64,000 nucleotides of DNA from Roridomyces roridus (Eukaryota; Basidiomycota; Agaricomycetes; Agaricales; Mycenaceae), in NCBI GenBank assembly GCA_029378245.1, contig JARKIF010000137.1, positions 1 through 64,000 on the forward strand, in the 5' to 3' direction. Positions 39,935 through 59,975 of the stretch are shown in pieces (within the stretch, counting starts at the first letter, position 1; every line of letters starts with the position of its first letter). The translations under genes and the position numbers were made by a program. Under the pieces are notes generated by a model that saw only the letters and a program-made list of their open reading frames with translations, was not told the DNA's origin and made no database searches.

Positions 39935-41110
39935 CGTCCCCGGGGCCCGTGATCCCAAGTCCTGGTTCCGCGGACAAGAAATATTTGCATCCGCGGATCA
40001 AGTGCTTTGAGTCACAGTGTCCCATGTCTGCCGTGGCGCCGTCTGGGCTACAAGAGATCCTAGAGAATGGCTGCTCTGCTCCTCTGGTCGTTACGGATCG
40101 CTTCAGGGATAGGGGAATTCGATGCCAGACCAAAAGGGAGAACCTGTATCCCAGAGACGCATTGAAAGTACATAGGAAAGTCAATTGCTACGGCTCAAGA
40201 TTCAAAGGCTGCTATAGTGGTGTTGAAAGTCTCGGCGATGGCAAACAAGGCCTCCTTTGTATAACCATGCTGCACTCAAGTCAGTTCAGGAATCTAGACA
40301 GACAGTGATCACGCACGGGGACAGCCCTGTCTACAGCCATTCCATAGGCAAAAGCACTCTCATTGAGAGCTTTCAGTCCGGTAAGAGTCGCTGCCAACAA
40401 TCCATGTGCCGCCTGTAAACATGGTCGGCAAACAGTCAAGGTGATGAAGAAGAGCACTGATACGAAAACCGATTTCTTTCTAACAAACCCCGTCAACGAG
40501 TTGTTGAAGTAGTGTAAAGTAGTCGGGACGTCGTTGAAGATCGTTCCTGACTCCGAGGTAGGAAAACTTGGTTTGGTGGTCTGACCTGCGTATCAGTAAC
40601 CTGAATTGAACAGAGGTGAAGCGTAAGTACCTGGAGATCGACGGTGCCTCGGTCGAAGGCGGCGACTAGGTTCATGGTCGTTGCATGGATGTTCTGTGCA
40701 AGGTACGGTGAGTGCGCTGATGGAGAGAATATACGACCTACCCCCGAGGCTGGGAAAGCTTTTACGCCCGTGTCCAGATCAAATACGCGCAACGCAATCT
40801 CTCTCCAATCGCTGTGTATCGTTTGGACTGGAGTTTTATAAGCAAAGTTGGCGCCAATGAGCGAGGCGGTCAACAACAAACGAGAAAGATGCACCATAGT
40901 GAAGGACGCCAGGCCTATGGATTCATCTGGGTCGCTCTTATACGTGAATGGTTCTGAGCTCTGGCGCTAATGAGTCAAAAGAACATTCTGGGGAGGTCAA
41001 TCACCGTCATGACCCACGAATATTGAACTTACCCGTGCCTCTAGCTCCATTGGATATGGCTCTTTACGCAGGTGTGTGTACTATTCACGGCCGCGGCAGG
41101 CGCTGACGTC
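39935..41110. repeat. Segmental duplicate, copy 1 (partner at 58810-59975)
   Basis: The HsbA-like gene and both flanks match 58810-59975 in the same orientation. Shared left-flank words are 'ttccgcggacaaga', 'cgcggatcaagtgc', 'gcaagacatcctagag' (or 'acaagagatcctagag') and 'aggggaattcgatg'. Shared right-flank words are 'gctaatgagtcaaaagaac', 'acttacccgtgcctctagct' and 'ctattcacggccgc'. Divergence is moderate, with indels. Confidence 0.85.
40195..40897 (-). CDS. HsbA-like secreted protein 6
   Basis: Five exons: 40897-40742, 40693-40631, 40580-40470, 40412-40317 and 40269-40195, 166 residues with all joins in phase 0. The signal peptide is MVHLSRLLLTASLIGANFAY. Core blocks are FDLDTGVKAFPASG, LTGLKALNESAFAYGMAVD and ALFAIAETFNTTIAAFES. 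A TATA-like TATAAGA lies about 45 bases upstream (minus strand, near 40940). It is closely paralogous to gene 7 and lies in a segmental duplication. The extra residues in exon 3 (FPTSESGTIFNDVP) differ from genes 1-2, so it is a separate subfamily. Confidence 0.88.
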
Positions 41111-41177
41111 GACTCCGAGGAGATCCACTTGCGCTACTACTAGCGACTCGTCGTCCCAGGAGATCAGGGCCAGGATA

Positions 41178-41770
41178 ATGTGCCGCTGCAGTGCCGCGTA
41201 GTGCCGCTGAGGGCCGCGGCCGCATGATAAGCGGCTGTGAGGGTGGAACATGTTGCCGCAGGGTGTGTACAAGGTCGGTGGTGTTCAACGACGGTCATAT
41301 TCTGTCATATCATACTTCTATGTATAATTTGAGAACAAAAAATATGGTACAGTTGAAGAGTTTGACTTCAACATAGGTTCCGCGTGTCGAACGAAGCCAA
41401 CATTCCCCCTTATCATACCTCCATATGTTCATGTGAAACAGAAAATGGGGGGAAATCGAAGAGGTGGGCTCCAAAAAAGGTGTTCGTGCGGCCATGACCA
41501 GGGTCCATGCAGCGGTCATGCGCGGCTGCGGCTGCGGCACTACGCGGCACTACGCGGTCCTCAGTGGTAGTCGCAGCGGCACTCAGCGGTAGTCGCAGCG
41601 GCACTAAGCGGCAGTGACAGCGGCACTCAGCGGCACCCAGCGGTAGTCACAGCGGTCCTCAGCGGTAGTCACAGCGGTCCTCAGCGGTAGTCAGCGGTAG
41701 TCAGCGGCACTCAGCGGTAGTGGCAGCGGCACTCAGCGGTAGTGGTAGCGGCACTCAGCGGTAGTGGTAG
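41178..41770. repeat. GCGGCA-rich repeat with inverted ends
   Basis: On the left (41178-41225) the strand reads words such as TGCCGCGTAGTGCCGCTGAG. From 41500 to 41770 the complement recurs many times as CAGCGGCACTCAGCGGTAGT units of about 20 bases. The centre (41240-41490) is AT-richer. The layout resembles a non-autonomous transposon with long subterminal repeats. I could not fix the terminal inverted repeat or a target duplication. A related GCGGC array is at 58343-58534. Confidence 0.6.
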
Positions 41771-42275
41771 AGCCAGTAACATTTGAACGACCAGATTCAT
41801 TGCTGTCAATTAAGTAAGTAAGTAGCATCCTTTGGGACTGACTGCACCGCAACGAATCTCTGGAGCGAGGTTCCAAAAATGCTTATGAATGATCATCCCG
41901 GTTGCGCGATCGAATTTTGCACGGCCGCAACGACTCCCAGCCCATGCCTTTGGTCCCCATCATGATTCGAGCACGACCTAGGCCATGCACCTAACTGCTC
42001 AGTGTCCAACTGTGTACCCCAACAAATGGGTTGGCATTCTGGCACTGCTCAGAAAGCGGGCATTGACTGCTAGCCATAGTTGTTCTCACACAGCGGAATT
42101 CCATTGACTGAAACCTAACATCTTACTTTGAATCAATGTTCCGGGAAGTAAGTTCGAACTTGGAAGTAAAATGATTTGATTTCGGAACAATTCAAGAATT
42201 GATCGGTAACCTGTGCTCTCCAGGTTTATCCGCTACCACCACCACTCCTATCTACAGCAGGCCATCGTATCCATC
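41771..42275. other. Left flank of the mobile-element island
   Basis: No gene is supported. I looked here for the left end of a CACTA-type element and found none. Confidence 0.4.
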
Positions 42276-43476
42276 ATGCCGGACGCTACACTCGTTCTCA
42301 TGCTCGTAATCAATGTGGCCCTCCTCGCTATAGTTCTTGCGTCGCATTGGGATCGGATTCTTGGTGTCCTCCACCATGTCTATGCAGCGCTCTTGCCCTG
42401 GCTCAATACCTCGACTCTTCATCTCATATACGGCCCTGTGATCCTCTACTTGCTGTTGCCGGCTGGAAATCCGCCTCAACAACGTCAGTTCCTGCCCCAA
42501 CAAAGGATTCTTCCTCGTTACGATGTGCAAAGTAAGTGAAACTTGTTGCCGGCGCATCGGTGGATTTAACCAACATCTTACGGATAGATAACTTGCGGGT
42601 GGAATCAGGGTTCCAAATGGCGCGCAAGAGACACGCAAGTCCCTTCTGTGCGGCTTATACTCACTGTTGACGCATCTGTAGGAACTTTGGATCGGCATTC
42701 GCCAGGTCATTCGCAAAGATCAGTCCCTCCCGTGCCAAATCTATCCAACGGCGAACGACGGCGCTCTCAAGGAAGGCGGCCTTCTGTTTCGCACAGTGAG
42801 GAGCTCGAGCAGCGCGAGGTCTCTGCCTGGGACAGCTGGCCTGACGGAGAGTTCACCTCCTCTTTTCCACCCGAACAGATGCATCTCTTGACCTACCGCT
42901 GGATCTACGAGTCCAAGCAGGTGAATCGCGGCTCTGATACGGCGGTGGACTCTCGGCGCGGAAAACAAGCCATCCGCACATGCCTAGGGGTCCTCTCGTG
43001 CAGCTCGCCGGAGTGTAGATTTGGCATGCATATCGCTCCAGAGGATAGCCTCAAAGGAATTGAACGTCAACTCAAGGTAAAATGCCTGTGTGGGTTGCCA
43101 CGGCGGCGAATCAGCTGTGGGATCCAGTCCACGCTCGTTGTCTATGGGGGCGGAGTGATATTCACCAATCACGGCGTTCACAAGCATCCACGATACACGC
43201 ATCATCTTCGGCGGGACACAGAGTTGAGAGAACTGACACCAGAGCCGAGTAATGAAGAAGGGGAGGCAGAAGATTGTACGCACTATCATTTTTCGATTAA
43301 GCAGCGCTGATTGTGCAATAGTTTTTGCAGCCGACCATCTAGCGTATATTGACGGTGGTACCGACGACCATGAGCCACAGTCTGAAATCAATCCGCCCAA
43401 CGAGCCTCCACTAGTAGACGGATCGCGCGCACCGGAAGCCGTGACACAGACGCGAGGGGATCGGCAGGCAAATTGA
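42276..43476 (+). CDS. Predicted membrane protein with a GCM-like zinc domain
   Basis: Three exons: 42276-42531, 42682-43275 and 43331-43476, 331 residues in phase. The N-terminus has two hydrophobic helices (LVLMLVINVALLAIVLAS and LHLIYGPVILYLLLPAG). A basic Ser-rich linker leads to a Cys/His domain at about residues 140-240. It has WDSWPDGEF, then CLGVLSCSSPEC, then KCLCGLPRRRISC and a final FTNHGVHKHPRY. This order matches the GCM DNA-binding domain of the WRKY-GCM1 superfamily and the homologous part of the transposase gene downstream. The first intron is unusually long (150 nt), so the join of the membrane part to the GCM part is the weakest point. Confidence 0.6.
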
Positions 43477-43926
43477 CACTTACTTCAACCTTTGTACCCT
43501 TTTCTCCGTCCTCCTCTTTTTCCCCCTCGATCTCCGCTCCCACACGGACAACGCAATGTCACACCCATACTCAAGACCTCGAATGAGAACGGCCCAGTGG
43601 CAAGCGAGTAAAGTAACTTACTTCAAGTTCGTGCTACAGTTGTCACAAGCCAGCGATTCAGTCGTGATGCCCGTGTGACTCAGTGTCGTAGCGTTCATGA
43701 GTGAACCGGAAGCGCAAATGTCGTCAAGACGTCCGAGCGCATTAGGGTTGGTGGTGGAGGAAGGGAGAGCCGTGAGTGCGTGAGCCGTGGCAAGCATCGG
43801 ATACGTAAAGTGATTGATGTAAACTCCGGTGCGCTTCGATCAAGGGCGGCTACACTTCTCTCTCCGCTCCTCCATGTTGCCTCCATGTCCGAATTGGCAT
43901 GCTCTTCCAGCTGCTTCCTTGAATCG
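43477..43926. other. Intergenic region without a supported gene
   Basis: Short frames only. I see no repeats that match elsewhere in the window. Confidence 0.4.
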
Positions 43927-44325
43927 TCAAAACGGAAACCTGAGCTTTGAAATCAGGTCACGCGGATCATTCTGAAACAGGAGCTCGATCACTCTGGCGA
44001 CGCAGCTCTCGGTTTTTGCCTCCTCAATCTCGTTCCAGCCAGCCACTCCGGGCCTATCTCGAGGTCTCCCTCTGTCTACAATCTTCATAAACTGGCACAA
44101 AACTCTTGGACATATCCTCTTTCCTGTCGAAAGCCCCGGACACTGCACAGCGTCGAGTCTAATCTTCCCGTTTGCATCTATATCCCCGGGGGAGGTCCTC
44201 CCTTCCACTTCTACACGAAATGGATATTTGGGTGAGTCTCTCTGGTTAAACACTCTGGAACTTACAAATGGACACCTTGTTCGATGCAGCACACCGCGAA
44301 AAATTTCGCAAACCGCATTTGGCAT
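43927..44325 (-). CDS. Hypothetical ORF inside the mobile-element island
   Basis: A continuous 132-codon minus-strand frame from an ATG at 44325. It ends in a protein-like charged segment (GVAGWNEIEEAKTESCVARV, then LFQNDPRDLISKLRF). A second minus frame just upstream (44246-44476) could be an earlier exon, but I could not join them cleanly. It overlaps the possible 5' exons of the plus-strand transposase gene, so at most one of the two is right here. No family recognised. Confidence 0.3.
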   Translation of the reverse strand: MPNAVCEIFRGVLHRTRCPFVSSRVFNQRDSPKYPFRVEVEGRTSPGDIDANGKIRLDAVQCPGLSTGKRICPRVLCQFMKIVDRGRPRDRPGVAGWNEIEEAKTESCVARVIELLFQNDPRDLISKLRFPF

Positions 44326-44580
44326 CGTGGGCGCCCTCCGCCAGCCCGAAATGATGAACTGTATCGTGGGCTACCCATTGGTAGCCGCCGTCTGTTTGAA
44401 CGTAGTCTGAATGCTCACCTGCATACGTACAGATGACCTCGCTGACGTGCAGCATGAAGTTATCGAGCTCAAGCATTTCGACGGCACTGTTTATGCGTTT
44501 AGAGATCGGGCCAGCGTCGGTGCCAGTATGTGCTGCTCTATTTTATCTTTTTTGTCTTCTCATCCATCTCCCTTAGCTAG

Positions 44581-47500
44581 GCAAACCTCCCGTGTCAGCA
44601 AGCCGCTGCACACCAGTAGACTCCCTCGACTTGATGGTGGTCATCCCGCAGGTGCGTACTCTGTGTTTCCGACATGCTTCCTTTCTCAACGCTCTCAATT
44701 AGATACACGCCCCTCGAGGCGCAAGAGACAGCACGAGTCTTCTGACTCTGATGGCGATGAGCATCGTATGTTGATAGTAGTCTATTCGAACATCGGTGCT
44801 TAACAATTTCCAGCCGTGCGTCAGGGGCGACCTGCTCACAGAAAAAAACCAAAGCGACACCGCTCTCGGAGCAGCTCTTCCGAGAGCTCTGCTTCCCCTC
44901 CCCCTCCTGGAGCGCCCCGACGTCAGAATATCACTCCGTACGAGTCCGATGTTTGGGACAAGACAGCCATCGCAAAAATGGTAGAACACTACGGTTGGAA
45001 CTCCTGGCCCGACGGCGACGAAAACAACGGGAACTATCAGAAAGAGATGTCGACCAAGTTTCGCATGCAGGTGAATTGGGCATTCCAGACCTCCGGAGCC
45101 AGTGGCCGCAACGGAAGCGACGAGGCACCGGACTGGCAGAGCGGGCATCTAACTGTTCGCAAATGCCTAGGGTACATGAAGTGCTTGAATGAGGCGTGCA
45201 AGATCATTGTGCGTCCAAAGACGAGGCTCAAGTCACGCACCCAGCAACTCGACGACCCATGCCAATGTGGATCTTCCATTACGCATTTCCCGTGCGCCGT
45301 CGTCTCAAAGTATTGGGTCTGGTCGGGAGGTGTTCGCTACCAGAACGGCGGAGTCCACGACCATATAAAGCCGATCGAGATCCATATAGCCCCGGGGAAG
45401 GAGGTCGAATTCGAAGCAACCGTGCGCGCCCATCCTACTGCCGGCCCGTCGAGACTTTTGGCTGGCATTCCGACCGCAGACGGGCTCGGACCCTCCGTCG
45501 CAAACATCAGTGCGCTGCTTCTTAATCGTCGACGAATCAACTATCAGCGTTCGAAGGTCATACCCCCTGCGATATCAACGCGGGACCAGCATTTCGAGGC
45601 CGCATTAAACAAGCTGCGCGCGCAGAATCCGGACTGGACGATTGCTGTGCATTGGACTCAACAGGCGCGCGTGATTACTTTGCAATCGGCGTGGATGAGG
45701 GAGAGGTGTCTCAAAGACCGAGTCGAGACGGAGGCGGTGAACGGCATTGTTACGGATGGTGCACACAACTTTTTCAAGGGGCACAACCAGTTGCTTTTCG
45801 TCAGCTCGGCCTTCGAGCCTCAGTTCCTCAAGTGCTGGGTACCCGTGGCGATGTCTTATTCCGACGGCGCCTCCGGAGACCACCATGGCTTCCATTTCCG
45901 ACAGCTCATGGAGGGCATCGGTTGGCAATGCAACTTGGAAAAACGCCCTGTGAAGGAGGAGATGTTTGCAAACGTGGGTTACAATCGTGGCGTGTAGTTC
46001 TGGCACTCACTTTTCGTAGATGGTTGATTTCAGTGATGCTCAGCGCAACGGGTTTCTCAACGCGCATGATGACTTTTGGGCGAGTCAGACGGATAACAAG
46101 CGCAGCCCCGCCGAAATCCGAAAGGCGGGCGAGGGACTTGTCAAAGGTTGTCGTCGCCACTTCGAGGATCAAATCAATCGTATCAAGAGAATCAGCCGCA
46201 TTGTTCATCCCTCTCAACAGACGACCTTCTCTAATTACGCACACTCCCTCCTGCACGCCAAGAACGTGGCGGAATTTCAAGAGATAGGCCGTGCTTTCAT
46301 GGGCTCTTTTCCACTCGCCGCGCCGTGGATTTCTTGGTGGATGCGTCAGGCACATGCAAGCATGCTTTTCCCAGCAGAGCGAACCATGGATGTGGATCTG
46401 TGGAACTCGCTACCTGAAACGAACAACCCTGCCGAGTCGGTGCATAACCGGGTCTACTCCATGCTGGGCAGGAATAATGCCCTGTGGCATGGTATGACGG
46501 GTCTGATTCGTAGCTCCGAGATTTTTGAGATACAATACCGTGAGGCGCAGCGTGAGCATCGTTACTCTTCCCCTTTTCCTGGTTGTCTGACGAGAATGCT
46601 TCTAGACGGGACACCCATCTACTACGGCAAGGACCCGCAAGATTGGAAGAAGATCGCCGATATTTACGGGTACTCAAAGCATTCACGCCACAAGCCGGCG
46701 GTATCGGATGGCCCTCTTGACGGCCGCCCGCCCGACACGGCTCAACAGCTACTTGGAGACGCCCAGCCTGGTGGGAAAAAGTCTTCCAAAGTCGCACAGC
46801 TCCTCAACGCAGTCGGGTATCGCTGGGACAGCAACTCTTGCTGGCTCGATACATGCTTGAGTGTACTGTTCGCTGCTATGTTGAACGACGTAGCTGGCTA
46901 TCAATCAATCCTGCAGCAATTACCGGCCTCACAACCGCTCTCATGGATACTGCACCAAGTTATTGACACGCATATCGCCATTGCGCAGTTACCCAACCAC
47001 CCAGACGATGCACAAGACCGACTCTTTCGCTCTCGAAACTCTCTACGGCAGCAACTGGTTGACTCTCCGGTGATCAGCGGCCTCACTTCACCGTCAATGA
47101 TCTATACACCCTTTGCAAGTGTTGGACTCTTGACGAAAACATCCATACTGACTGATTTCCGCAGAGTTGCGTCTTCGAAAGCACTTCCGTGGCAGCGTTG
47201 AGCCCCGACAAAGGCGGTGATCCGACTTCAGAGCGGGGATTCTCGCTCTTTCGCACATATGTTGTCGATGTTCGACAGTGCAGTGGGGATCAAACCGATG
47301 ACCACGGTCAAACCCACTTACAAGTTGGCACTCCGCGCTGGGGAGGACCCGTTCAACTCAGTGCGTCGGACTTCGCTCGTCACGACGGCAAGCTGGCCAA
47401 GTGGTTCCGCTCTGTGCTAAATCATAAAGAGTTGCACAGTTGCCTCTGTTGGCGTCAGCTCGACGGCGAAACCATCTGCGATGGTCTGTGTGCTCTTCAC

Positions 47501-47986
47501 TCCTACATCATCAGCATTCCTAGAATCCTCGTGGTCGAGCTCGCCGCATCGCAATTCTGGCACATTCCCGCCTCCCTCCCTCCGCTCGGTACGACACTCG
47601 CTGCCGCTGGAGTCAGATATGACCTCGTTGGGCTCATATACAGCAACTCTGTGTTGGCCGCCCAAACAGGATCCACGGTTCACTTCATTTCTCGCTACGC
47701 GTTACCCGATCAACGGGTATTTGACCACGATGGCTTGAGCAATGGAGGTTGGGCAGTGCATTCGTCTAGCACGACGTTCAAGCGCATGATGACGGGCGCG
47801 TCAACAAAAGCGCAAAATGTCCCACCCGGCTACACACTCCATACAGTGGTGTATCACCTCGCAGGCGGCGAACAGGCCCAGCGTGTTTTCCGCCAGGAGA
47901 CATCAGGAAAAAAACTCCTTCGGAAATGTGGGGGCAATTTGGGTTCCCTCAAAACCAATATTGCCACTTTGGCTAGATTCCGGTAA
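44581..47986 (+). CDS. GCM domain + MULE-like transposase + USP-like peptidase fusion
   Basis: Exons that join in phase are 44581-44651, 44703-44765, 44814-45973, 46020-47114 and 47165-47986; the true start is not found. After a basic Ser/Arg-rich head comes a GCM-like zinc domain (about 44980-45380): WNSWPDGDENN, RKCLGYMKCLNEAC, DPCQCGSSITHFPC, YQNGGVHDHIKP. A MULE-type transposase core follows (NGIVTDGAHNFFKGHNQL; MSYSDGASGDHHGF; acid in TNNPAESVHNRVYS). From about 46810 the chain continues into a USP/C19-like peptidase with a Cys box (NSCWLDTCLSVLF), RYDLVGLIYSNS leading to a His box (VHFISRY), and FDHDG. The last intron is GC-AG. A 7-A run near 47910 may hide a frameshift, since another frame stays protein-like after it. 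Confidence 0.72.
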
Positions 47987-48270
47987 GACGGGGAGACTGG
48001 TGGAATTTGACCCAACCTGGTACCAAGCTGGCCAGACTGGGAATACTGGACATGACACCAATGTTAAAATGGTGTAGTGGATTTGACTGCTTGCGTTGAC
48101 TCTGAAAAAGGTCGGCATGAGGGGTCTCATCGTTCAACTCCCATTCAACGTAAATTATTATTCACCGCGTCTTGCTCTATTTTTGTTTCAGCGCATACGG
48201 AGCCCAGCAATGCTGTTTAACTCCCCTCGAATGCGGAAATCGCTCAAGCATTTTACAAACACTGAATCTA
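47987..48270. other. Spacer between transposase genes
   Basis: Contains the word GGTGTAGTG at 48071-48079, the form of a CACTA-type right end. No matching CACTAC... left end was found. No gene is supported. Confidence 0.35.
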
Positions 48271-51200
48271 TTAAAACACCGTAGTATACACATGACGGTC
48301 GGTCATCGAATTCACAAAGAACGTCGTACACTGGTCGAGGACAGTGCTCGACTTCCAACCTGCAGGCGCCACCGGACCAAACTTTGGAAGAAGATGGATG
48401 CTCCGGCGTAGATTGCCCACCGGGACAATGCTGGCCAGTCGTTCCCCGTCCTTCAGAGATCGCTTGAGTTTGTACAACAAGTGGTGGGGCTCGGGGGAAG
48501 CGAACGGCGTGAACCACTCCACGTAGGCCAAATACTTTGGCGGTAGAATGCCTGGTTGAAACAGATGGCGCAGATGTCGCTCAGGAAGCGTGAAAACTGC
48601 CCGGATCTGCACTACCCGATAGCCTAGCAGCGGCAGGAACAACATCAGATCCAGGACTGGCAGGGAACTCGAGACACACCTGACACACCGGTGATGCCCC
48701 CGGTCCCATCGTTGACCAGAGCTGTATCGAAACGCCCCGGAAGGAGCTCACCTTTTTGAGAGTTCTCGCCGGTTGAACATGAATCGAGTCGACCACAGAG
48801 TCCTCGGGCCCACGGGCAGTGTAGGGATCCTCGGTCACGAATTTGATACGGTGGAACACGGGCAGCGCATTGAAGGGGAAGTTGAGGTCTTGAGAGCGTG
48901 TCTCAACCTGGGCACGCGACAGGGTGGGATCGTTAAGCTGCACAACATAACGAGCGAGAGCATCCCGAAAGAATTTAGCACCGTAATCGGCGACCAAACG
49001 TGTCAGTCGCACGGCTTTGACGCTAGGATGCTTCGTCATTTTGAGCTGACGCTCGTAGACGATGCCCGGCGGCAGAGGTTCGACAGTGGGTGGAGCGGGG
49101 GATCCGTCAAGACGCCATTGGATGTATTTCTCGTGGCGATAAACCTTCTCCTTTCGCTCGAGCCAGAGAGTCATCTGTGGAAACTCGTCCTTGAAGTTGG
49201 TGGAGCGGTAGGCGTCCTTGGCAAGATCGATATGCAACCGCTCGGTATATTCCGTGTTGTAGTTGTCCGTCGTACCGAACAGCTTGATGTACATGACATA
49301 GTGGCGGCAGGAATGGAGTTTCGGTAGGTTAAAGTCGTCACGAACACCGAGGTCCACAAACACCCACTTGTTGTCGTGGAATTGCTGGAGTGAGTCGTCA
49401 AGGTGAAGGAGAGTTTCGGACGTATGCATGGGATACTGAGCGAGATGCACAAAGTCGAGGATACCGCGAACGGCAGCAAGGAGGGGGGCGGGGGAAACAT
49501 TGTTGGGCAGCCGTACATCAATGATGAGGGCGAGGATGAAGCGCGAGATCTGGTCGTGCTCCTTCCCCGTGACACGAGAAAGGTTGCATATCCCGTTCAT
49601 AAACAAACGGATGTGGTGATTGGGAGGGAGACGCCGACAGCGAGCATCAATCTCCGCCTCGCCTACCACCTCTGTCAGCCACGCGATGAGATGTTTGACG
49701 ATTCCCTGGTAGAGCTGGTGCAAAACATCCGGGCTGATGGCCCGAAAGATATTTGTGTACGGAAGTCCCTCCCAGAACGGGTGGAAAATCGGCTTGATAC
49801 CCGCCTCCTCACACGCCCGCTTGTAGATCGTAGGACCTTGATCCAGGGACTCGAGCGCCTCGAGAATTTTCTCTAAATTGCGCAGCGGGTGATTCTCGTC
49901 AGCTCCGAGCTCTTCTCGAGGGACGTCGCATGTCGGGCACTCCCCGGTCTTTGTGCAAGTCACGAGTAACTGCTCGGGATAGTCTCCGACAAAGGTGGCG
50001 TAGATAGGGTGCCCGCGGCGCGTCAACCCGTCGCCGCTGGTCATGGGAAGCCCGGTGACTCCAGCCGTCTTGAGCGGCTCGAGGATGTGTGCCATACACG
50101 CGTGGAAAACATTCGCCAAGATGCGTCGCCGGGCAGACTTGTTTGTCACGTTCTTCATGCGTGACGTTGGGAGGTATCCGAGAAGAACGTAGCCCCGCCG
50201 CGATGGCTTACGGCGAATTTCTTTCGGTATGTTTCCGATCGTCATGTAGACCGGGTACGCGGTCTTGTTCCCGAACACGGTGAGCTGGGTTTTATCGGAG
50301 GAAATGATGATTGGAATAATTGTGGCCCCTGGGTTGTCCTTTTCAACGGCCTGCTGCACACGGAATGAGCGAGGAATGCATTGATTTGAACGCGGGACGG
50401 ACATACCTGTGTGCTCCACCACCATTTGCCGGTATGCATGTTATGATACATACGAATCTTCTTATCCTTGTCGATATAATGGCGTTCTGGAAGCACGAAC
50501 AGGTACGGTGCAAATGAAGTGTCTCCCCAAAGCGCACGAACACATTCGATTATGTTACGTGAGTACAGATGGAAGACCTCGCCGTTAACAACAACCTCGG
50601 AGCGAGAAAATTTGGGGCGCCCGGGGAGGTTGTTGTCGATTTTCTTGTTCAGCTCGGCAGTAGTCTTATAGGACAATCCAAGGGCTTCACGGACCTGAAG
50701 ACGGATCAGCCATTTGCTCAAGAGCGAACGTGAAGAGCATGCACACACCCCGTCAATTTGAAGCAGGTCTGTAAACGCCGTAGAGCCCGAACCACGCAAC
50801 TTCGCCCACCTCGCGACTTCCCAGTCCATTTTTGAATCAAATGGGGCGTAGGGATTTTGCTCCGCCGATTTATCAAGCGAAGCTTTGTACGCTTGTTCAG
50901 AGGTGTCGGAGCGAGTAGTGTTTATTGGCTTCCCGGCGACATCGCTGGGGTAGTGCACAACAATGGGCTTCCGATGGAAGCGGTCCTCGGCGGCCTTCCG
51001 CACCTCGCGAGTCGGTACGCACGGCACAGTCGCAGGAGGAGCATCAGGCATAGGTACGTCATCGTCAAGAGAGGAAGCGGCCAGTCTCGGCGGCTCATAG
51101 CCTTCCTCGAGCCCCGCAAGACTAGCATCCTCCTCATCTCGTGCATGTGGATCTGCCTCGTCCTCATCGTCGGATTGGGGCGGCTCTTCATCATCGTCAC

Positions 51201-51477
51201 TCGACTCGTAGCCGAGATCTTGCTGCGTATAGTCGTCCCCGAAAAAATCGCCCCGAAAGGTGGTATGGCCCACGGGAAGCCCATGGTCAGAGAGGTCCCC
51301 GAAGTTCTCAAGCATCGGAGTCGGCGCAGATGCTGATGGGACATCGCCCGCTTCCGCAGCAAGAAAGAGTGCATGGCATGGTGGATTTGTAGTAGTCCTC
51401 AGATGAATTGACAAGCCCTTCTGGCCCTTGAAGTCGCCGCCACAGCTGGGACAACGGCCTGAAGACGGAGCAGACAT
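48271..51477 (-). pseudogene. Plavaka-type (CACTA-like) transposase with one frame break
   Basis: Exons: 51477-50407, 50353-48680 and 48623-48271. The N-terminus has a C2H2-like finger (CPSCGGDFKGQKGLSIHLRTT), a long acidic linker, then the conserved transposase: WWWSTQ|QAVEKDNPGATIIPI, IISSDKTQLTVFGNKTAYPV, NIPKEIRRKPSRRG, TCTKTGECPTCDVP, ISPDVLHQLYQGIVKHLI, and the C-terminal LAYVEWFTPF, RSIHLLPKFGPVAP, TDRHVYTTVF. This is the Plavaka family common in Agaricomycetes. The frame is lost at a 5-A run (48753-48757): one more A would restore GELLPGRFDTALVNDG. So this copy is either just broken or the sequence has an error. CACTAC lies 54-59 bases upstream of the ATG on the coding strand. Confidence 0.88.
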
Positions 51478-51756
51478 AAAGTATAGTGAATTCAAGGTCT
51501 GGGGCAAGTCTGGGGGGCGTCGTAGCACCTGTAGTGCAGAAACCCAGCTCCGTCCATCGGTCGTTATCGATAATCGATGCCCGGCTGAATGCATTCCGGA
51601 TGATAAAGCTAGGCACAGACCTGAAGACCTGACGATCCATCAGTCAAGTGCCGACATGGGTTTGCGGTCGCCTTACCTTTTTTCCCTTAACTCTCTCTCT
51701 TCCCTTCTACCACCATCGCATACGCACCCCGCACCTGCATCCCCTTCTCCCCAGCC

Positions 51757-54440
51757 ATGTCCGACCACCTCACCCCAGCAGAGAAAGCAAAGATAACCCG
51801 TCGCCTCAATCAAGAGAAGGAGCGTCGGGACCAGGCCATATTCGAGGCGCAGTCTCGTGAGTCGTGCTTCCAGATATCGACAGAGTCGACCACTGACTCT
51901 GTATCATCTCATAGGAAAATCTGGGGGACGCCAGGCGAAGAAGGACGCCAAAGCCAATGCACGTAAGTGAAGACTTGTGTGCTGCATCTCCGCCGTTGAT
52001 AACCTTTCAGTCTGGCTCGCAAAAGATCTCGAGAGCGACCCGAACGACAAGACGAGCAAGTCGAGCAAGACGCCGGTTACCGTGGGTCGCAAGAGGATGT
52101 CGTCGACCACCGCCGTCGCCGACAATGCCAAACGGGCCAAGGAAACGGAGCCAGCCGGTGAGTTCGCGCTGCAGTCTTGATGAATTGTTCTTGAGCTCAG
52201 ATAACTTTCCAGACGACGAGCCCCAGTCAGTGTCGGCGCCGGCTAAGGTCAAGGTTACTGCCAAAAGTACGCATCATCGTGATGTGTCACCTCGTGACAC
52301 ACCCTTCTTCTTCTCCTCACTTCGTCTCCGCAGAACATCCCGCACCATCCATCCCCATCGATTCGGACGACGAGGATGAGGTGCCACCCAAGCAGAAGAC
52401 TGGTGTGTTCCCCGTGTTCCCGATGCTCCCGATCTCATCCGATATCCAGTAAAAAAGACCACGAAGGCGCCCGCAGTCTCGAAAGGTGAGCATACACAAT
52501 ACTCGTGGATGGTGTGGGTCTCACTCCCTCTGTAGCTGTCAAGGCCAAGGCTCCAGCAAAGCCCGCTCAAGTCGTCGTCGAATCCGACTCCGAGACTGCC
52601 AGCTCCGGCGAGGACGAAGGCTCGGGTGAAGAATACTTCGACGAGAAGAGCTTTGCGCTGGAGGTACGCCCTTCAAACTCTCATTGTATTGTCTACTCAG
52701 TTGTTCTTAAAGGCTGCCCGTATTGTTCGCGAGAAGAGCCTCTTCTCCGACGATGAGGAGGACGAGCTTGTACGTACCTCATGCTTACCAGTCCGGCTCC
52801 ACTTCTCACCATTGATTCCTAGATGCCCGATGCGCCGCCCCGCCGCCCCGCCGCGCCCGAGGATCTCTTTGACGACGATGTAGACGTGGAAGAGTCGGTG
52901 CGTCCATCGTTTTCATCCTCGGCTTGCCATCACCGACGTTCTCTCAGGCTGTAGCGCGTAAGGCTCGCAAAGGACGTGCTACCGACTCCGACTCCGACAT
53001 GGAGCTTCACGAGGAGATGGCGAAGGCTACACGTCTAATCGATCGTCATCGTCGGTTATCTTCCGGGTCCGGCTGGTCGTCGGGGCAGGACGTTGTCGTG
53101 CCCGACAGCGAGTGGGACGGCGATGAAGGCCACGATGACGAGCCTGTCGCACCGGTTCCTAAGGTAAGTGTCGCCTGTCTGAATCGTTGTCTATTTATCT
53201 GATTCCCATTAGAAGCTGCCCAAGGTCACGACGGCGCGTCAGCTCAAAGCCAATCTGGAGGTACGTCACGCAGTTTATACACCACACCCTCACTAACTAG
53301 TCCAGCGGCCGGCCGTCCGGGCTGCGGTGCCACAGGCGGAGGAACCTCGTAACGCCACCGCACTCCCGCAGCCCGAATCCACCTACCACGATGCCGCTCG
53401 TCTTGTCCTCCCGCCCCCTGGCAAAGACGTGCGGCTCGGGGACCAACCCGAGGAGTGCAAGGCCGTTCTGCGCTACGCCATCTCGGGCGTCAAAGGCCAG
53501 ATCTTCTTCATCGATGCTTACCCTCCGATCCTGTCCCGCACCGGCTTTGCCAAACCGTTCATCCTCCAAGGGGCAACGGCTCTCGGTGGCGGCGGCACTT
53601 ACATCATAGCGCGGATTGAGACGGATACTCGCTACATTGGTGTTCTCGGCGGACTCGTACGTCGTCACTCTCTCCTCTCTGCCGTACTTACTCCTTGGAG
53701 GTTTCCGACCGCGTCAACATCATCCGCGGGGGTGTCAAGAAGATTGCCTGCAATGTCGTGCCCGGCTTGTATGGCCTGCTTGCCCTCCTGGCCGCTGCGC
53801 TCAAAATCAAAGTCGAGGACCTCATCAAAGACCATCGGTACATCTTCGGCATCGACCTGCAGACCGTTAGTCATCATTTATTCACCCTTCCCTCATCCTC
53901 ACTCCTTCGCAGGGTCGTATCAAGACCGACGAACCCTATGGCCATCCTGCCATCGTCATGGTCATCAAACAGGCCATTCTCACCCCGTCCGTGAGGGCCC
54001 AGCACGAACATCGCTTCACGTCCACCAACACGAAACACCCCGAGCTCCTTGAGCTGCCGGATGCCATGGTCGCTCTCGCTGCGACCGCCGTACGTGCATC
54101 AGTTCTTGTCTTCCTCTTCGGCTGACTCATCCATCCAGGTCTATGCCGCCCTTATCGAGTACCGCACCACCGGCGAACGCCAAGTCATCAACTTCACCGA
54201 GGCGGCGTACGAGGACACCTACCGTAACCACCTCAAGACTCTCGCCGACACCCGTGCCTACGCCCCCGTCGCCACCCACCGCCTCCTTCATCGGTTGTAC
54301 CTTGAGGCAATGTACGTGCTGGTACCAATTGTTTGCTCATGTACTCATCAATTTCCAGGGACACGCACGCTGCGCAGCCCGCTGCCGGTAGTTCCTCGAC
54401 TCTTGTCAACCTCATTGATGTCCCCGGTGATGAGTTCTAG
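51757..54440 (+). CDS. DUF6532-domain protein
   Basis: Many exons; the first three are 51757-51856, 51915-51962 and from 52011, and about ten more follow, ending with a stop at 54440. The start ATG at 51757 begins MSDHLTPAEKAKITRRLNQE, a helical head. The middle is a long disordered part rich in acidic, Lys and Ser residues (DSDSETASSGEDEGSGE-like patterns). The C-terminal 250 residues form the conserved domain: KAVLRYAISGVKGQIFFIDA, YPPILSRTGFAKPFIL, VSDRVNIIRGGVKKIA, YRTTGERQVINFTEAAYEDT. I recognise this as DUF6532, a basidiomycete domain of unknown role. It sits between a Plavaka gene and a USP-like gene. Confidence 0.75.
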
Positions 54441-54754
54441 GGTTCTCTGCGTGGTAATTAGAAATATTTAGACATTTCATACATTTCATACATTCTGCTC
54501 AATATATATATATGCCTGCCCTTCCTTCCATGCGAGTAATATGATAAATTTTCGGAGCAAGTTGGTCAGTTTGCCAAGACCGATGCCGGTAATCTGTCAC
54601 CAAACGGCGTAAAGTTTCCTCCGTTTGGGGGCAGATTATTTTCAAGGTTACAAAGTCGGAAAAGGACCCAACCTCGCGAATATGGTCCGTTTGGTCTTTT
54701 TTTCTGGATAATCTGGTACAATCTAACGGTATTTCCAAAGGAGCCTTTTCCTGA
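54441..54754. other. AT-rich spacer before the USP-like gene
   Basis: Contains a short TATATATATA run (54504-54513). A minus-strand frame of 184 codons covers 54499-55053, but it is probably the shadow of the plus-strand gene's acidic and basic linker. The missing 5' end of the USP-like gene may lie here. Confidence 0.35.
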
Positions 54755-57700
54755 TGGAGGGAGAAGAGCGCACCGTGGGGGTTACGCTTCGAAGGACAGT
54801 CAGCCCGTATCGAAAAGTCGAGTTGCGAACCGGTTGAGGATGAAAAGCGGTATTGGGTCCCAGAAGAGAGACGGTCATTCACCACAGAGTACCATGAGGA
54901 GAGGAAGAGTAACCGCGCCTCGGAATCACCCAAGAAGCGCCGAGGGAAGCAGTCGACCGGAGACACCGAGCCGGAATCAGCGGACTCGGAGAGTTCCGCT
55001 GAGTCCGATGTTTCAGACGGTGGTGGTGCCGACGAAGCGGCAGCCACCATCATATCGGACCCGGAGTTCCAATGCGGCTATCCTGGGTTCAACAATTCTT
55101 GCTTCCTTGACAGCACATTGACCATCTTGTTTGCTTCTGCTGCACGCGACCGCGACTGCTTTGAGTCATTATTCTCCAAATTGCCGGCGGAGAACCCTTT
55201 GACGTGGATTTGGGCCGCGGTTGTGGCTCACCTCGAAGAGTCAGCGGCTGCCTTCGGGGAAGTTGCGGCACCGTCAGTTCAACTCCGGGCTGCACGGGAC
55301 TCGTTGCGTTCACAGCTCGTAGCCTTGCCGGCGTGTGCCAGTGTTACTTCGTTGGATGAGGAGTCGAGCATGTTTGTGAGTAACCCACATAGCTGTACGA
55401 ATTTGGCTCAACTTGACCCAGGGCTTTCTATTCGACATCACAGGCCCGCGTGTAACGTCAGGATCTCCCGGGGAGCTCGACCGTGCCAAGTCATGTTTCA
55501 GAGTCTGGGACGTTCTCGTCCAACGGTGTCTGGGCGACAAAACACAGCAACACAGCTACGAGCACTGGCAAGTCAACAATCCTGGCAGACGAAATCAGAT
55601 TCAACTCACCGGGCATGATCTCACTACTTCGAATGGACGCCTCGACAAATGGTTCGGTGCGTTCCTGAATCCCCACGCCTGGACTCAATCATCGTGTTTG
55701 CGCATGCCCACGGATACCCATCCCGGCTGTTCAGGTCATGCATATTCTCACCGCTACGTTCTCGGTCTTCCTCTCCTTCTCATGGTTGAAATGGGCAGCA
55801 CCGTCGGCTCCGCGTGGGAGATACCGGCGTCATTGATACCTCTGCCGGGGAACTCTGCCGCCACTGCAGCTGGTGTTAAGTACGACCTCGTTGGCCACAT
55901 ATACAGCAACGGTGCCAGTATCACGTCCAACCGAACCCCGCATTTTATCGCTCGATATGAGCTCGACCACCGCGTCTTCGACCATGATGGCCTCAAGTAC
56001 AATGGCCGCGCTATACATTGGCCGAGCTCGAGCTCGAGCAAATGGCTTACCGGCTCTTCCAACAAACTCCCCGAGGTGCCGAAGGGTTTCGTTGTCTACG
56101 CGGTGATTTATCACCTGGCCGGAGGTGAGCCGGCCCAGCGGATATTCGAGGCTCAGCGGCAACAAAATGCGCCGTGGAGCATGTGGTTTGCGGATGTCAG
56201 CACCAGTTGGCCGCGTTTCGCCGAGATTCGGGATCCTCACTTCGGGCTGCTGGCCGACAACGAGCGTTTCTGGGTCTCCGACAAAAGGAAGAAACGTAGT
56301 CGCGAGTATCGTGTAAAAGCACAGCGGCAGCAATCACCCGAGTCAGAGGACGAGTCAGAGGTGGACATACTCCTACCGCCGCGGCCGGCTTCGAAAAAAG
56401 CTCACACGTATATGGAGATTGACGGCGCACAGCCGGATTCCGAGGACATAATGTATGTTTTCCACTCATGCTCTGCTGCCGCCCTGACCAATTAAAGGCC
56501 CGGAACCATTCACATGGCACGCGCGGATTTGGAGACACCCCGCGACTCAGTCCGTTGGTATCCGGCGCAAGTTCTGGGATTCGACTCAGAGCGCATCGGG
56601 ACGGAGTACAAGTTCCAGTGGGTTTCTGATGTTGTCTGGCCGTCGGGCGACGGAGTACCACCATCAGACCCGTTCTATCGACCGGCGGAAGACGTGATGT
56701 TACCATTTATTCACAGGGTGACACAGGTATGGAATATTGCACAAGACGGCCGGATTCTGACTGTTTCAAGTTGTCACCAATACGCCTCCCTCTCACCTAC
56801 AATCCCATCATCGAGGAGAAGGGGGATAGTCTCGACACGGCATTGACTTTGCTCTGCCTCTACTCCATGGATCAAGTCATCAATATCATTGGTCTCCCGC
56901 CGAACAATGCTCATCCAGTCGTGCGACACTATGATGACTCTGTGCGGCACAAAGCCGCTTCTGCATCGGAAGGCAAAGAGCGACTTCCCCTTTCAAAGGC
57001 TGCACGGAGCGTTGAGGCAGCCTTGTCGGACGCGGTGGATTTTGACTGGTTGGGTCGTTGTCGGTTGCCGTTGAACCCTGGTCTTGTCGCAACATTCATG
57101 GCACCTCTCTCAATACTGGATGGGAGACTGCGCAGTGGCGATTTGACCAACCCGAAGCGTGCCAAGACTATTGCCACTGCGCTCTGGATTTGTCTTGCTA
57201 TCCAGGATCGACTGGGCGAGGATTGGATCTGGGTGGAACCACATTCTTACATTTGCAGGCGGGAGCCATCATTCCTGACCCGGATATCACACGAGCACTT
57301 GCCGCGCGCGATGTGCAGACGGGCGCAATGCCGCTCGATGATATCCTGTCCTTTCAAGATTTGTCCACGTTGGGGCATCAACTCACCGTTTATGACCCTC
57401 GGCGGGCGGTGGTTTTTTATCAACACGCTCCTGAAGTTCCGCGAATCCACCAGCCTCCGATTTGGATCGTGCATCTTAATGTCAACATCCGGCGCCGGGA
57501 CGAATTGAAGGAGTCGTTCAAGGTTCGATTCGACGTCGCCGACGAAGAGCCCGAACCGATGGACACCAGCTCAATGAGCTCTGCAGATGTTCCGCTTCGG
57601 CTCACTGCGGTGAAGCGCAAGAATGGCTCGGATAACGAGGAGGTACGTATTGCGTCCCGAGTTGACTTGTATCCTATGCTCACAAACATTTCAGCTGCCC

Positions 57701-57925
57701 ATTGCAAAGCGTCGACCAGTACGGGCAGCTGCACAGCGGCGGGCGAGCTCAAGCCATCTCAACATGCCCCTGCAGTTGAATCCAGTGCCAGCGGCGAATC
57801 TGGAAAATGTTCAGCTGCGGTGGTCGGTAGAGATTGACAAGAGGATCTTGACTGCGAGGCAGTACGCCCGAGAATTCCCTGATGAGTTTGCAACCGCTTA
57901 TCCTCATCTCTTGCATTTACTTTAG
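54755..57925 (+). CDS. Stand-alone USP-like peptidase gene, 5' end unclear
   Basis: Exons: open from 54755 to 55375, then 55422-56452, 56498-56726, 56771-57232, 57259-57642 and 57695-57925. No ATG is found in frame in the first exon, so it is either 5'-truncated or has an upstream exon. After a Ser/Glu-rich linker the USP-like part begins: GFNNSCFLDSTLTILF (Cys box), KYDLVGHIYSNG then PHFIARYEL (His box), RVFDHDG. It is clearly homologous to the C-terminal part of the gene at 44581-47986, with one intron at the identical position (TTT| after SSMF). It carries an extra C-terminal region of about 350 residues absent there. The intron at 57233-57258 would be just 26 nt. Confidence 0.68.
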
Positions 57926-58809
57926 AAGTTCTGTAATTTCCTTGACATACAATGGCTAGTAGCTATTTATTTCAAATCCACTACAGTAGTCAAACTCTTG
58001 AAGGCTACAGAGCTTTGAGATTGTGGCTTTGATTACTTGTGCTTTACGCGATGACTGTACTTACATGTTGAATCCCCCAGCAGAAATTTGGACAACGGCC
58101 ACATGGGATAGGCTTTGTGAGCTGTCTCTGAGGTCTTTGAATGTGTTAGTACAGATAGAAGCAGGGAACACAGCTCACACATCTCGATTCCAAGAACACC
58201 GTGTTTCACTTAAATCACTCACCAACTGTGAACGGATAGAAATTTTCACATGGCGGCAGCGGCTTCTGATGCATTGAGATGGTAGGTATTCATCTCAATG
58301 GTCTTTACAATTGCTTAAATTTTGCAGGTAGTCGAAATTTCTGCGCGGCAGCGTGACAGCGGCCCTTGTGACCGCAGCGGCACATTGGTCGATCGACCGC
58401 TGTCACACCAGCGGCCCTGCGCGGTCATACGCGGCAGCGGTCCTACGCGGCAGCGGCTTGCAGCGGCTATCCCAGCGGCTGCAGCGGTCATCCCAGCGGC
58501 TGCAGCGGTCATCCCAGCGGCTGCAGCGGCACATTAGCCGGGCCCCAGGAGATCAGTAGTTCATATAAAATCTCCCAAAGCATTATCCAATTTGCCGGTT
58601 ATTCGATCCAAGGTTCCATCCTGCCGCCGCAACCGGGTGAGGTTGGAAGGTTGACGCGGAGGACAATCGTGAACGCACTACGTAGCCCCGGGCCACTGCA
58701 GAGACCGCCGCTGTGTGGATGACTTCATAAGCTGAAAAACGGGCTCTCCGATTGACTTGCTTTCGCTTTGGGGCCTCAGAATGCCGAGTCCATATATGCT
58801 GAGCATTCC
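57926..58809. other. Non-coding stretch with a GCGGC array
   Basis: No gene is supported. It holds the array at 58343-58534 and the word CACTACAGTAG at 57981. Confidence 0.45.
58343..58534 (+). repeat. GCGGCA array, relative of 41178-41770
   Basis: Contains three near-perfect tandem copies of CATCCCAGCGGCTGCAGCGGT (about 58488-58530) and many CAGCGGC words. The right end CTGCAGCGGCACATTAGCC resembles the reverse complement of the left end of the array at 41178 (GATAATGTGCCGCTGCAG). The two therefore probably share a terminus. Confidence 0.6.
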
Positions 58810-59975
58810 CAGTCGAGTTCCGCATGAGGCTGCCTCGTTCCGCGGACAAGACATATTTGCACCCGCGGATCAAGTGCATTGAGAGTGCCGGACATTTGAC
58901 AATATCTGCAGTCCTGGACTGCAAGACATCCTAGAGGGTGGCTGCTCCTCGGGTCGTTCCGTTTCGGTTCAGGAACAGGGGAATTCGATGTCAGACCGAA
59001 ACAGAGAACCAGTATTCCAGGGACGCAATATACATAAGATGTCACTTGATAGGGCTCAAGATTCAAAGGCGGCGATAGTGGTGTTGAAAGTCTCGGCGAT
59101 GGCAAACAAGGCCTCCTTTGTATAACCATGCTGCACTCGTGTCAGTTCGGGAATCTAGCCAGACAGAGTGACGCACGGGGACAGCCCTGTCTACAGCCAA
59201 TCCATAGGCAAAGGTGCTCTCATTGAGAGCTTTCAGTCCGGTAAGAGTAACTGCCGACAATCCATGCGCCGCCTGTAACCGTATGGTCGGAAAACAGTCA
59301 AGGTGATGATGAAGAACATACGAAAACCGTTTTCTTTCGAGCAAACCCCGTCAACGAGTGGTTAAAGTGGTGCAAAGTAGCCGGGATGTCGGTGAAGATG
59401 GTTCCTGCCTCCAGATTAGTCAAAGGTTCAGTGTCCTGAGCTCATATCAGTAACCTGAGAAGTGAGCAGAAGCGAAGCGTGAGTACCTGGAGATCGACGG
59501 TGCCTCGGTCGAAGGCAAAGACCAAGTTCATGGTCATTCCATGGATATTCTGTTAAACGTACGGCGAGTGCACTAATCGAGGGAAGATATGACCTACCCC
59601 CGAGGCTGGAAAAGCTTTTACGCCCGCGTCCAAATCAAATATGCGCAACGCAATCTCTCTCCAGTCGCTGTGTATCCTTTGGACTGTAGTTTCACAAGCA
59701 AAGGTGGTGCCAATGAGAGAGGCGGTCAACAACAAACGAGAAAGATGCACCATAGTGAAGGACGCAGAGCCTATGGCTCCCTCTGGGCCGCCCTTATACG
59801 TGAATGAGTCTGAGCTCCGGTGCTAATGAGTCAAAAGAACGTTCTGGCAACTTCTGGGGCAATGGCCATGATGACCCACGAGTATTAAACTTACCCGTGC
59901 CTCTAGCTCCACAAATTCAATGTGGTTCTTTATGCAGGTGTGCGCACTATTCACGGCCGCAGCAGGGCTCCGAGG
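58810..59975. repeat. Segmental duplicate, copy 2 (partner at 39935-41110)
   Basis: See copy 1. The duplication carries an HsbA-like gene with promoter and about 250 bp on each side. The two copies now lie about 19 kb apart on either side of the mobile-element island. Confidence 0.85.
59056..59753 (-). CDS. HsbA-like secreted protein 7
   Basis: Five exons: 59753-59598, 59549-59487, 59435-59328, 59272-59177 and 59130-59056, 165 residues with all joins in phase 0. The signal peptide is MVHLSRLLLTASLIGTTFAC. The product is very close to gene 6; exon 5 encodes the same residues and exon 4 differs at a few. Exon 3 is one codon shorter and its first residues have changed (DTEPLTNLEAGTIFTDIP). Because the frame and splice sites are intact in both copies, both are probably functional. 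Confidence 0.88.

Follow-up and report, generated by a model that had tools for sequence, protein, structure and literature searches.

A Mutator-type transposon of Roridomyces roridus with a transposase that probably carries divergent USP/USPL1-type isopeptidase domains

We analysed a 64,000-nucleotide stretch of the Roridomyces roridus genome (the window; GenBank assembly GCA_029378245.1, contig JARKIF010000137.1, positions 1 to 64,000), in which positions 41167-58545 are one Mutator-type DNA transposon, as judged by its inverted ends and target site duplications. Its large transposase probably carries C-terminal isopeptidase domains of a divergent USP/USPL1 type, in tandem in this element; a sister family has one such domain, accompanied by a PHD-like finger. 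An earlier note on the same DNA had proposed a gene ending at 47986, in which a GCM-type zinc domain, a Mutator-like (MULE) transposase and a USP-like peptidase domain are joined. The junction between transposase and peptidase-like domain is borne out below, while the gene end is not and the class of the peptidase has to be worded more loosely.

Layout of the fused gene

The window was compared with its source genome, G000 (90.8 Mb). The loci of this genome referred to below are L033 and L034 (both on contig C24), L035 (C146) and L038 (C401). The fused gene is laid out in the window as follows.

44804..45973, plus strand: exon A, with a basic region, the second GCM-like domain and the start of the DDE-like core, including candidate D1 (45755-45757)
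46020..47114, plus strand: exon B, with the rest of the DDE-like core, a linker and the Cys lobe of USP-like domain 1
47165..47900, plus strand: exon C, the His/Asp half of USP-like domain 1, cut by an insertion (open exon 47165-47899)
54759..55054, plus strand: linker between the two USP-like domains, with the gene back in frame (compare the natural open reading frame of L033)
55055..55375, plus strand: Cys lobe of USP-like domain 2 (Cys codon 55100-55102), followed by an intron at 55376-55421
55422..56153, plus strand: His/Asp half of USP-like domain 2
56496..57925, plus strand: C-terminal exons with approximate limits and weak similarity to C146

The open frames are at the positions indicated in the earlier note: three exons (44804-45973, 46020-47114 and 47165-47899) are open and are joined by a GT-AG and a GC-AG intron. 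The first of these introns (45974-46019, GT-AG, 46 bases) has a junction resembling that of the paralog L034. The second (47115-47164, GC-AG, 50 bases) was read by eye and is in phase 0 after Phe; the second domain of the window, C146 and L034 may each have an intron at the corresponding position and in the same phase. Exon B, which is uninterrupted, holds both the end of the transposase and the Cys lobe; it contains candidate D2 (46026-46028) and E (46434-46436) of the DDE-like core, the linker YGKD..DGRPPDT and the Cys codon (46839-46841). In exon C, the His codon is at 47681-47683 and FDHDG starts at 47720. A conserved tail follows USP-like domain 2, and the C-terminal exons match C146 at 25% over 149 amino acids in the window and at 27% over 114 amino acids in L033. 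Beyond the earlier note, the analysis added a first GCM-like gene, the second USP-like domain at 55055-56153, the element ends and a nested insertion.

Among the exon proteins, neither the DDE-like core nor the peptidase-like part was matched by Pfam. The zinc domain was matched by PF03615 with 21.8 bits and an E-value of 1.9e-4; since this is under the Pfam cut-off of 25, we describe the domain as GCM-like only, and the GCM-type domain proposed earlier is weakly supported.

Paralogs and metagenome relatives

The same domain order is found in the divergent paralogs L034 and L035, the former having a partner on C471 that is 99.6% identical over two stretches. A profile search with exon B matched seven metagenome proteins. 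Three of them, P0005, P0006 and P0007, cover 99%, 98% and 75% of exon B, respectively, contain both the transposase and the Cys box, and make up the metagenome support for this junction, whereas the other four contain the linker and the Cys box. The fusion proposed in the earlier note is thus upheld by a junction that lies inside a single exon and by two metagenome proteins that span it almost in full (98-99%).

The natural open reading frame 6079-7104 of L033 continues in frame from the end of one peptidase-like domain into the next; therefore, the gene carries a tandem peptidase-like pair. As L033 is without the transposase part, the whole fused gene is uninterrupted in no single copy. Where the transposase part would be expected, positions 3852-6081 of L033 hold a sequence unrelated to the window with an open frame that looks gag-like by eye. 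C146 has a PHD finger (23.6 bits, just below the cut-off of 24) after its only USP-like domain. The metagenome protein P0001, with 48% identity to C146 across 372 positions, likewise combines a USP-like domain with a PHD-like finger (E 0.005, 17.3 bits, below the Pfam cut-off), and for P0002 the best likeness is USP-like domain 2 (41%).

A 361-residue query, the peptidase region of the complete protein, found no relative among 8000 scored candidates, while exon-sized queries did recover relatives. Pattern scans returned 21 matches in viral contigs and 74 in genome contigs, none of which proved to be a relative. In G000, the peptidase-like domain was found, among the best-scoring candidates, only in these elements.

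Motif conservation and selection

The Cys box, the His box and FDHDG pointed out in the earlier note are present and are conserved in the relatives found. SC[WF]LD is kept in 11 of 11 Cys-lobe sequences, and HFI.RY and FD.DG in all five His-half sequences, in the conserved order Cys, His (with an invariant H-F-I) and then F-D-[HY]-D-G. The ratios of nonsynonymous to synonymous differences (pN/pS), which are rough because synonymous sites are near saturation (pS 0.75-0.90), were 0.36 and 0.29 for two stretches of the peptidase between L034 and L035 (shifted-frame controls 1.21-1.46), 0.54-0.55 for exon 2 among C146 and USP-like domains 1 and 2 of the window, USP1 and USP2 (controls 1.02-1.30), and 0.67 for exon 1 between USP1 and C146 (controls 1.00 and 1.22). 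By these ratios, the peptidase-like domain is covered by purifying selection.

Class of the peptidase-like domain

The USP-like class given in the earlier note is plausible in that the boxes align to those of CYLD and USPL1, but neither the Pfam families UCH and C98 nor profiles of ordinary USPs support it. CYLD arose from a blind search of the PDB (177,635 distinct sequences, nine-sequence profile, E ≤ 10), in which it was the third of three matches (E 0.99, at the Cys box), the other two not being peptidases. With three profiles it scored above all 3000 shuffles (10.8, 13.9 and 7.9 bits, against at most 5.8, 7.1 and 5.3 for the shuffles and 7.5, 6.4 and 2.6 for unrelated open reading frames), again aligned at the Cys box. 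USPL1, which was a guided choice and did not come from a blind search, was aligned by hhalign (E 0.0027-0.0097) at the Cys box with two profiles and at the His/Asp box with one (E 0.0093), in register at both boxes. At the level of motifs, the order of Cys box, His box and Asp of peptidase family C19 is present. Domain 2 was also modelled with AlphaFold, from an input that retained the translated intron and lacked the last strand. In this low-confidence model, Cys16 opens a long helix and the His immediately precedes a strand; block means in the helical lobe around the Cys are mostly 50-76. The domain is probably a divergent cysteine isopeptidase of the USP/USPL1 type, with ubiquitin or SUMO as a possible substrate.

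Several observations weigh against this reading. The profile search against USP families, put forward in the earlier note as a check, gave no match to UCH (PF00443) or C98 (PF15499), even with a hand-filled consensus. Compared by hhalign with the His half of ordinary USPs from this genome and the PDB, the domain reached a probability of 0.6%, which is chance level. In the profile test of the USP His half, 18 and 90 of 300 shuffles were as good and the best local alignment was out of register; when five members were taken one by one, 28, 131, 1, 36 and 137 of 200 shuffles were as good, C146 (1 of 200) alone standing out. The USP profile was made without L043, a near copy of L041, and the per-member test without L043 and L045. 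Membership among ordinary USPs is thus unsupported by profile comparison. The similarity to CYLD spans about 20 residues. For USPL1, 14, 14 and 44 of 3000 shuffles were as good over the whole score, and 5 of 3000 and 42 in further shuffle tests; reverse scores were close with one profile, unrelated open reading frames of the window scored higher, and the hhalign score was 24.9 against 26.5 for the best of 200 shuffles. The two AlphaFold models had mean values of 48.4 and 49.5 for the predicted local distance difference test (pLDDT), and predicted template modelling scores (pTM) of 0.45 and 0.29, the second of each pair being those of domain 2. As to the gene, the conserved D, D and E candidates of the catalytic triad were assigned by eye, and both paralogs are damaged, L034 having lost most of the His half and L035 having an interrupted transposase frame.

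The Mutator-type element and its copies

The element and the insertion nested in it have the following limits.

41157..41166, no strand: target site duplication CAGGAGATCA, left copy
41167..58545, plus strand: whole Mutator-type element including the nested insertion, with inverted ends and target duplication
47901..54756, no strand: nested Plavaka DNA transposon of 6.86 kb, with inverted ends CATCAGGAAAA and the 2-bp duplication GA
58546..58555, no strand: target site duplication CAGGAGATCA, right copy

Mutator elements (MULEs) are marked by terminal inverted repeats and by target duplications of 8-11 bp, mostly 9. The ends of the window element are GGGCC[A/C]GG[A/C]TAATGTGCCGCTGCAG, its inverted repeats are alike at 23 of 25 positions (counted by eye) and its target duplication measures 10 bp. 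The MULE-like transposase of the earlier note therefore finds support in the structure of the element, that is, in its ends and the duplications of 9-10 bp, but not in Pfam: the MULE transposase family PF10551 matched none of the exon proteins, and none of its eight matches in the genome is at this place. Thus, we claim an element that is Mutator-type by structure and not membership of the Pfam family.

In G000, the terminal pattern (at most two mismatches) occurred 24 times, as compared with four for the reversed control. Twenty of the occurrences could be paired by hand into ten convergent pairs and four were single. Apart from the window and C57, eight pairs were checked and exact duplications of 9 or 10 bp were present in seven; the remaining pair, on C24, has the same ends as the window and a 10-bp duplication after one extra base. 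C2:1927648-1931342 and C489:26196-32759 have identical flanks and duplication, as if two haplotypes were present in the assembly, and because of the shared flanks they count as one site. On C57 there is an internally deleted copy of 4.3 kb with the same ends and the 9-bp duplication GCATGAACG. A search for inverted ends combined with any duplication of 9 bp revealed a separate element on C146 (L035 42-8947; duplication TGCAGAGCA) and a 5.2-kb element with a GCM-like frame on C401 (L038 2031-7250; duplication AACATCAAG). L035, L037 and L038 gave one hit apiece; L034, L036 and the window gave none, the window because its duplication is 10 bp.

Two kinds of repeats were noted around the element: a direct repeat of about 1.1 kb (84%) on either side of it, at 39961-41100 and 58833-59966, and GC-rich subterminal repeats near its ends, at 41534-41765 and 58355-58545 (the right one by eye). 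An Rfam search of the window gave no match.

The Plavaka insertion

The Plavaka insertion, whose inverted ends and GA duplication were read by eye, has disrupted the window copy. The insert carries its transposase on the minus strand (E 2.4e-91, Pfam) and a passenger DUF6532 gene on the plus strand, and the part of it that was compared, 47901-53273, is 99.9% identical to C112. In L033, the flanks 47738-47900 and 54757-57792 directly adjoin, so that the uninterrupted site is seen. As the DNA from 47901 on is Plavaka, the last 28 residues and the stop codon at 47986 of the earlier gene model are not those of the gene, and 47901-47986 was rejected as its C-terminus. The C-terminal frame of the window also departs from that of L033 at about 57220, a second lesion besides the insertion.

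The first GCM-like gene

A second gene with a GCM-like domain lies upstream of the fused one.

42276..42531, plus strand: exon of a hydrophobic (membrane-like) N-terminal segment, donor GTAAGT
42682..43310, plus strand: first GCM-like domain (GCM1), its end being the end of the open frame
L034 7387-7872, minus strand; L035 1342-1614; L038 6021-6461, minus strand: counterparts of the hydrophobic exon

The hydrophobic exon and GCM1 are in frame across an intron at 42532-42681, the acceptor being one of several in-frame options, and this splice would give a membrane-anchored GCM-like protein. A small hydrophobic exon precedes the first GCM-like domain in four elements, namely the window, L034, L035 and L038, the segment of L038 being below the hydropathy threshold used. 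Between L034 and L035 this exon shows 66% identity and a pN/pS of 0.36; the similarity of the window exon to these two is not significant (E 0.15).

Possible function and alternative explanations

Read together, the GCM-like domain, the transposase, the isopeptidase and the PHD-like finger suggest deconjugation at the chromatin of the element or on the transposase. In such a protein, the GCM-like domain would bring the product to the DNA of the element and the DDE-like core would move it. The isopeptidase would most likely act at the same place as the transposase, where it might remove ubiquitin or SUMO in cis. The target could be the transposase, with an effect on its stability, or chromatin or silencing proteins at the element; as an outcome, the element could escape turnover or silencing. 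A further-reaching proposal, which we regard as rather doubtful, is that of a fungal Mutator lineage with a CYLD/USPL1-type isopeptidase fused to its transposase, doubled or paired with a chromatin reader, together with a membrane-anchored GCM-like protein. Such a lineage would undo ubiquitin- or SUMO-dependent silencing and tether its own DNA to the nuclear envelope.

Other explanations of the C-terminal domain deserve consideration. It could be a self-processing protease, unrelated to ubiquitin or SUMO, that cuts the long fusion into transposase and accessory proteins in the manner of the papain-like domains of viral polyproteins. A long multi-domain product, tandem Cys-His domains, a conserved tail after the second of them and the lack of a clear family match to known deubiquitinases would all agree with this. 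However, CYLD, the single peptidase that the PDB search returned in its three matches, is a C19 enzyme and was found at the Cys box, and the peptidases described on other transposons are isopeptidases of the Ulp1, OTU, C19 or VTD types (PMC2836005, PMC9741609), so we hold self-processing to be unlikely. A cysteine peptidase of another fold, for instance a VTD-like or a new one, has similarly little probability: chance-level comparisons with ordinary USPs speak for it, but CYLD and USPL1 align at these very boxes. An assignment to VTD was itself rejected, as the conserved order is Cys, His, FDxDG and not the Asp-x-His given for VTD (PMC9741609).

The domain might also be an inactive pseudopeptidase that binds ubiquitin or SUMO and only recruits the transposase to tagged chromatin. 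Its divergence from the Pfam peptidases is compatible with this, and the adjoining PHD-like fingers (in C146 and in P0001, each scoring under the Pfam cut-off) suggest chromatin reading. The candidate Cys is nevertheless kept in every Cys-lobe sequence and the His and FDxDG in every His-half sequence, which a pseudoenzyme would not need, and we consider such a role quite improbable. Finally, adjoining genes and random open frames could have been read together by chance, and the stop codon of the first gene model did come from another element. This is extremely improbable, since the order recurs in divergent paralogs and in metagenome proteins, the linker and the intron position are conserved, and there is purifying selection; for the junction of DDE-like core and peptidase it was rejected on the basis of the metagenome proteins spanning exon B and the order in the paralogs.

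Comparison with known systems

A GCM-like zinc domain before a Mutator-like core is reportedly the arrangement of the GCM-MULE transposases of the WRKY-GCM1 superfamily, said to have been described by Babu et al. in 2006, and the fused gene resembles them in this respect. Its peptidase-like domain aligns in register with CYLD at the Cys box and with USPL1 at the His/Asp box (one profile). CYLD is a deubiquitinase according to its PDB name and USPL1 a SUMO isopeptidase according to its Pfam and PDB names; both differ from the domain in being cellular enzymes, and whole-domain similarity to it was not found for either.

Among transposons, a parallel in kind is given by the Mutators that carry Ulp1 (Kaonashi/KIU, Vandal and plant MULEs), Mutator-type elements in which the cysteine isopeptidase likewise belongs to a ubiquitin-like pathway (PMC2528002, PMC2836005, PMC13317346). 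Their enzyme is Ulp1, and in Arabidopsis Kaonashi its orientation is opposite to that of the transposase gene, whereas that of the window element is USP/USPL1-like, fused and in tandem. In Ginger1, the transposase is followed by a C-terminal Ulp1 or OTU, and one family combines Ulp1 with PHD, a parallel to C146; the transposase is of the Gypsy-integrase-like type, the peptidases belong to other classes and the elements are listed from animals (PMC2836005). A Trichomonas protein joins Peptidase C19 to a DNA transposase of another type, transposase_11, and a GCM or Mutator context does not form part of its description (PMC2836005). The claim of the earlier note that no USP-like fusion had been described thus needs this caveat. 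The Helitrons that carry VTD or OTU domains likewise encode deubiquitinases, one with two VTD domains, and activity was shown, but they are rolling-circle transposons and their VTD uses Asp-x-His (PMC9741609). For the Ulp1 and OTU of Ginger, a role in repair has been proposed (PMC2836005), and for the Helitron VTDs protection from degradation (PMC9741609), while the TET dioxygenases on fungal DNA transposons are described as likely to act in counter-silencing (PMC12730594).

A USP-type domain fused to a Mutator transposase was not found among the titles and abstract starts that searches of the open full-text literature brought up, and the Trichomonas protein was the only related statement. As the domain goes unrecognised by the Pfam copy used, it would be overlooked in annotation based on Pfam. 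Isopeptidases on DNA transposons are already known, including those of the Ulp1 Mutators, Ginger and the Helitrons, and what is new here is probably the tandem arrangement of a USP/USPL1-like domain on a GCM-like Mutator transposase. With the enzyme being part of the transposase, the question becomes directly testable by the mutation of one Cys. The recurrence of isopeptidases in unrelated transposons (Ulp1, OTU, VTD and probably the USP/USPL1-like domain) argues that control of transposition by ubiquitin or SUMO is general.

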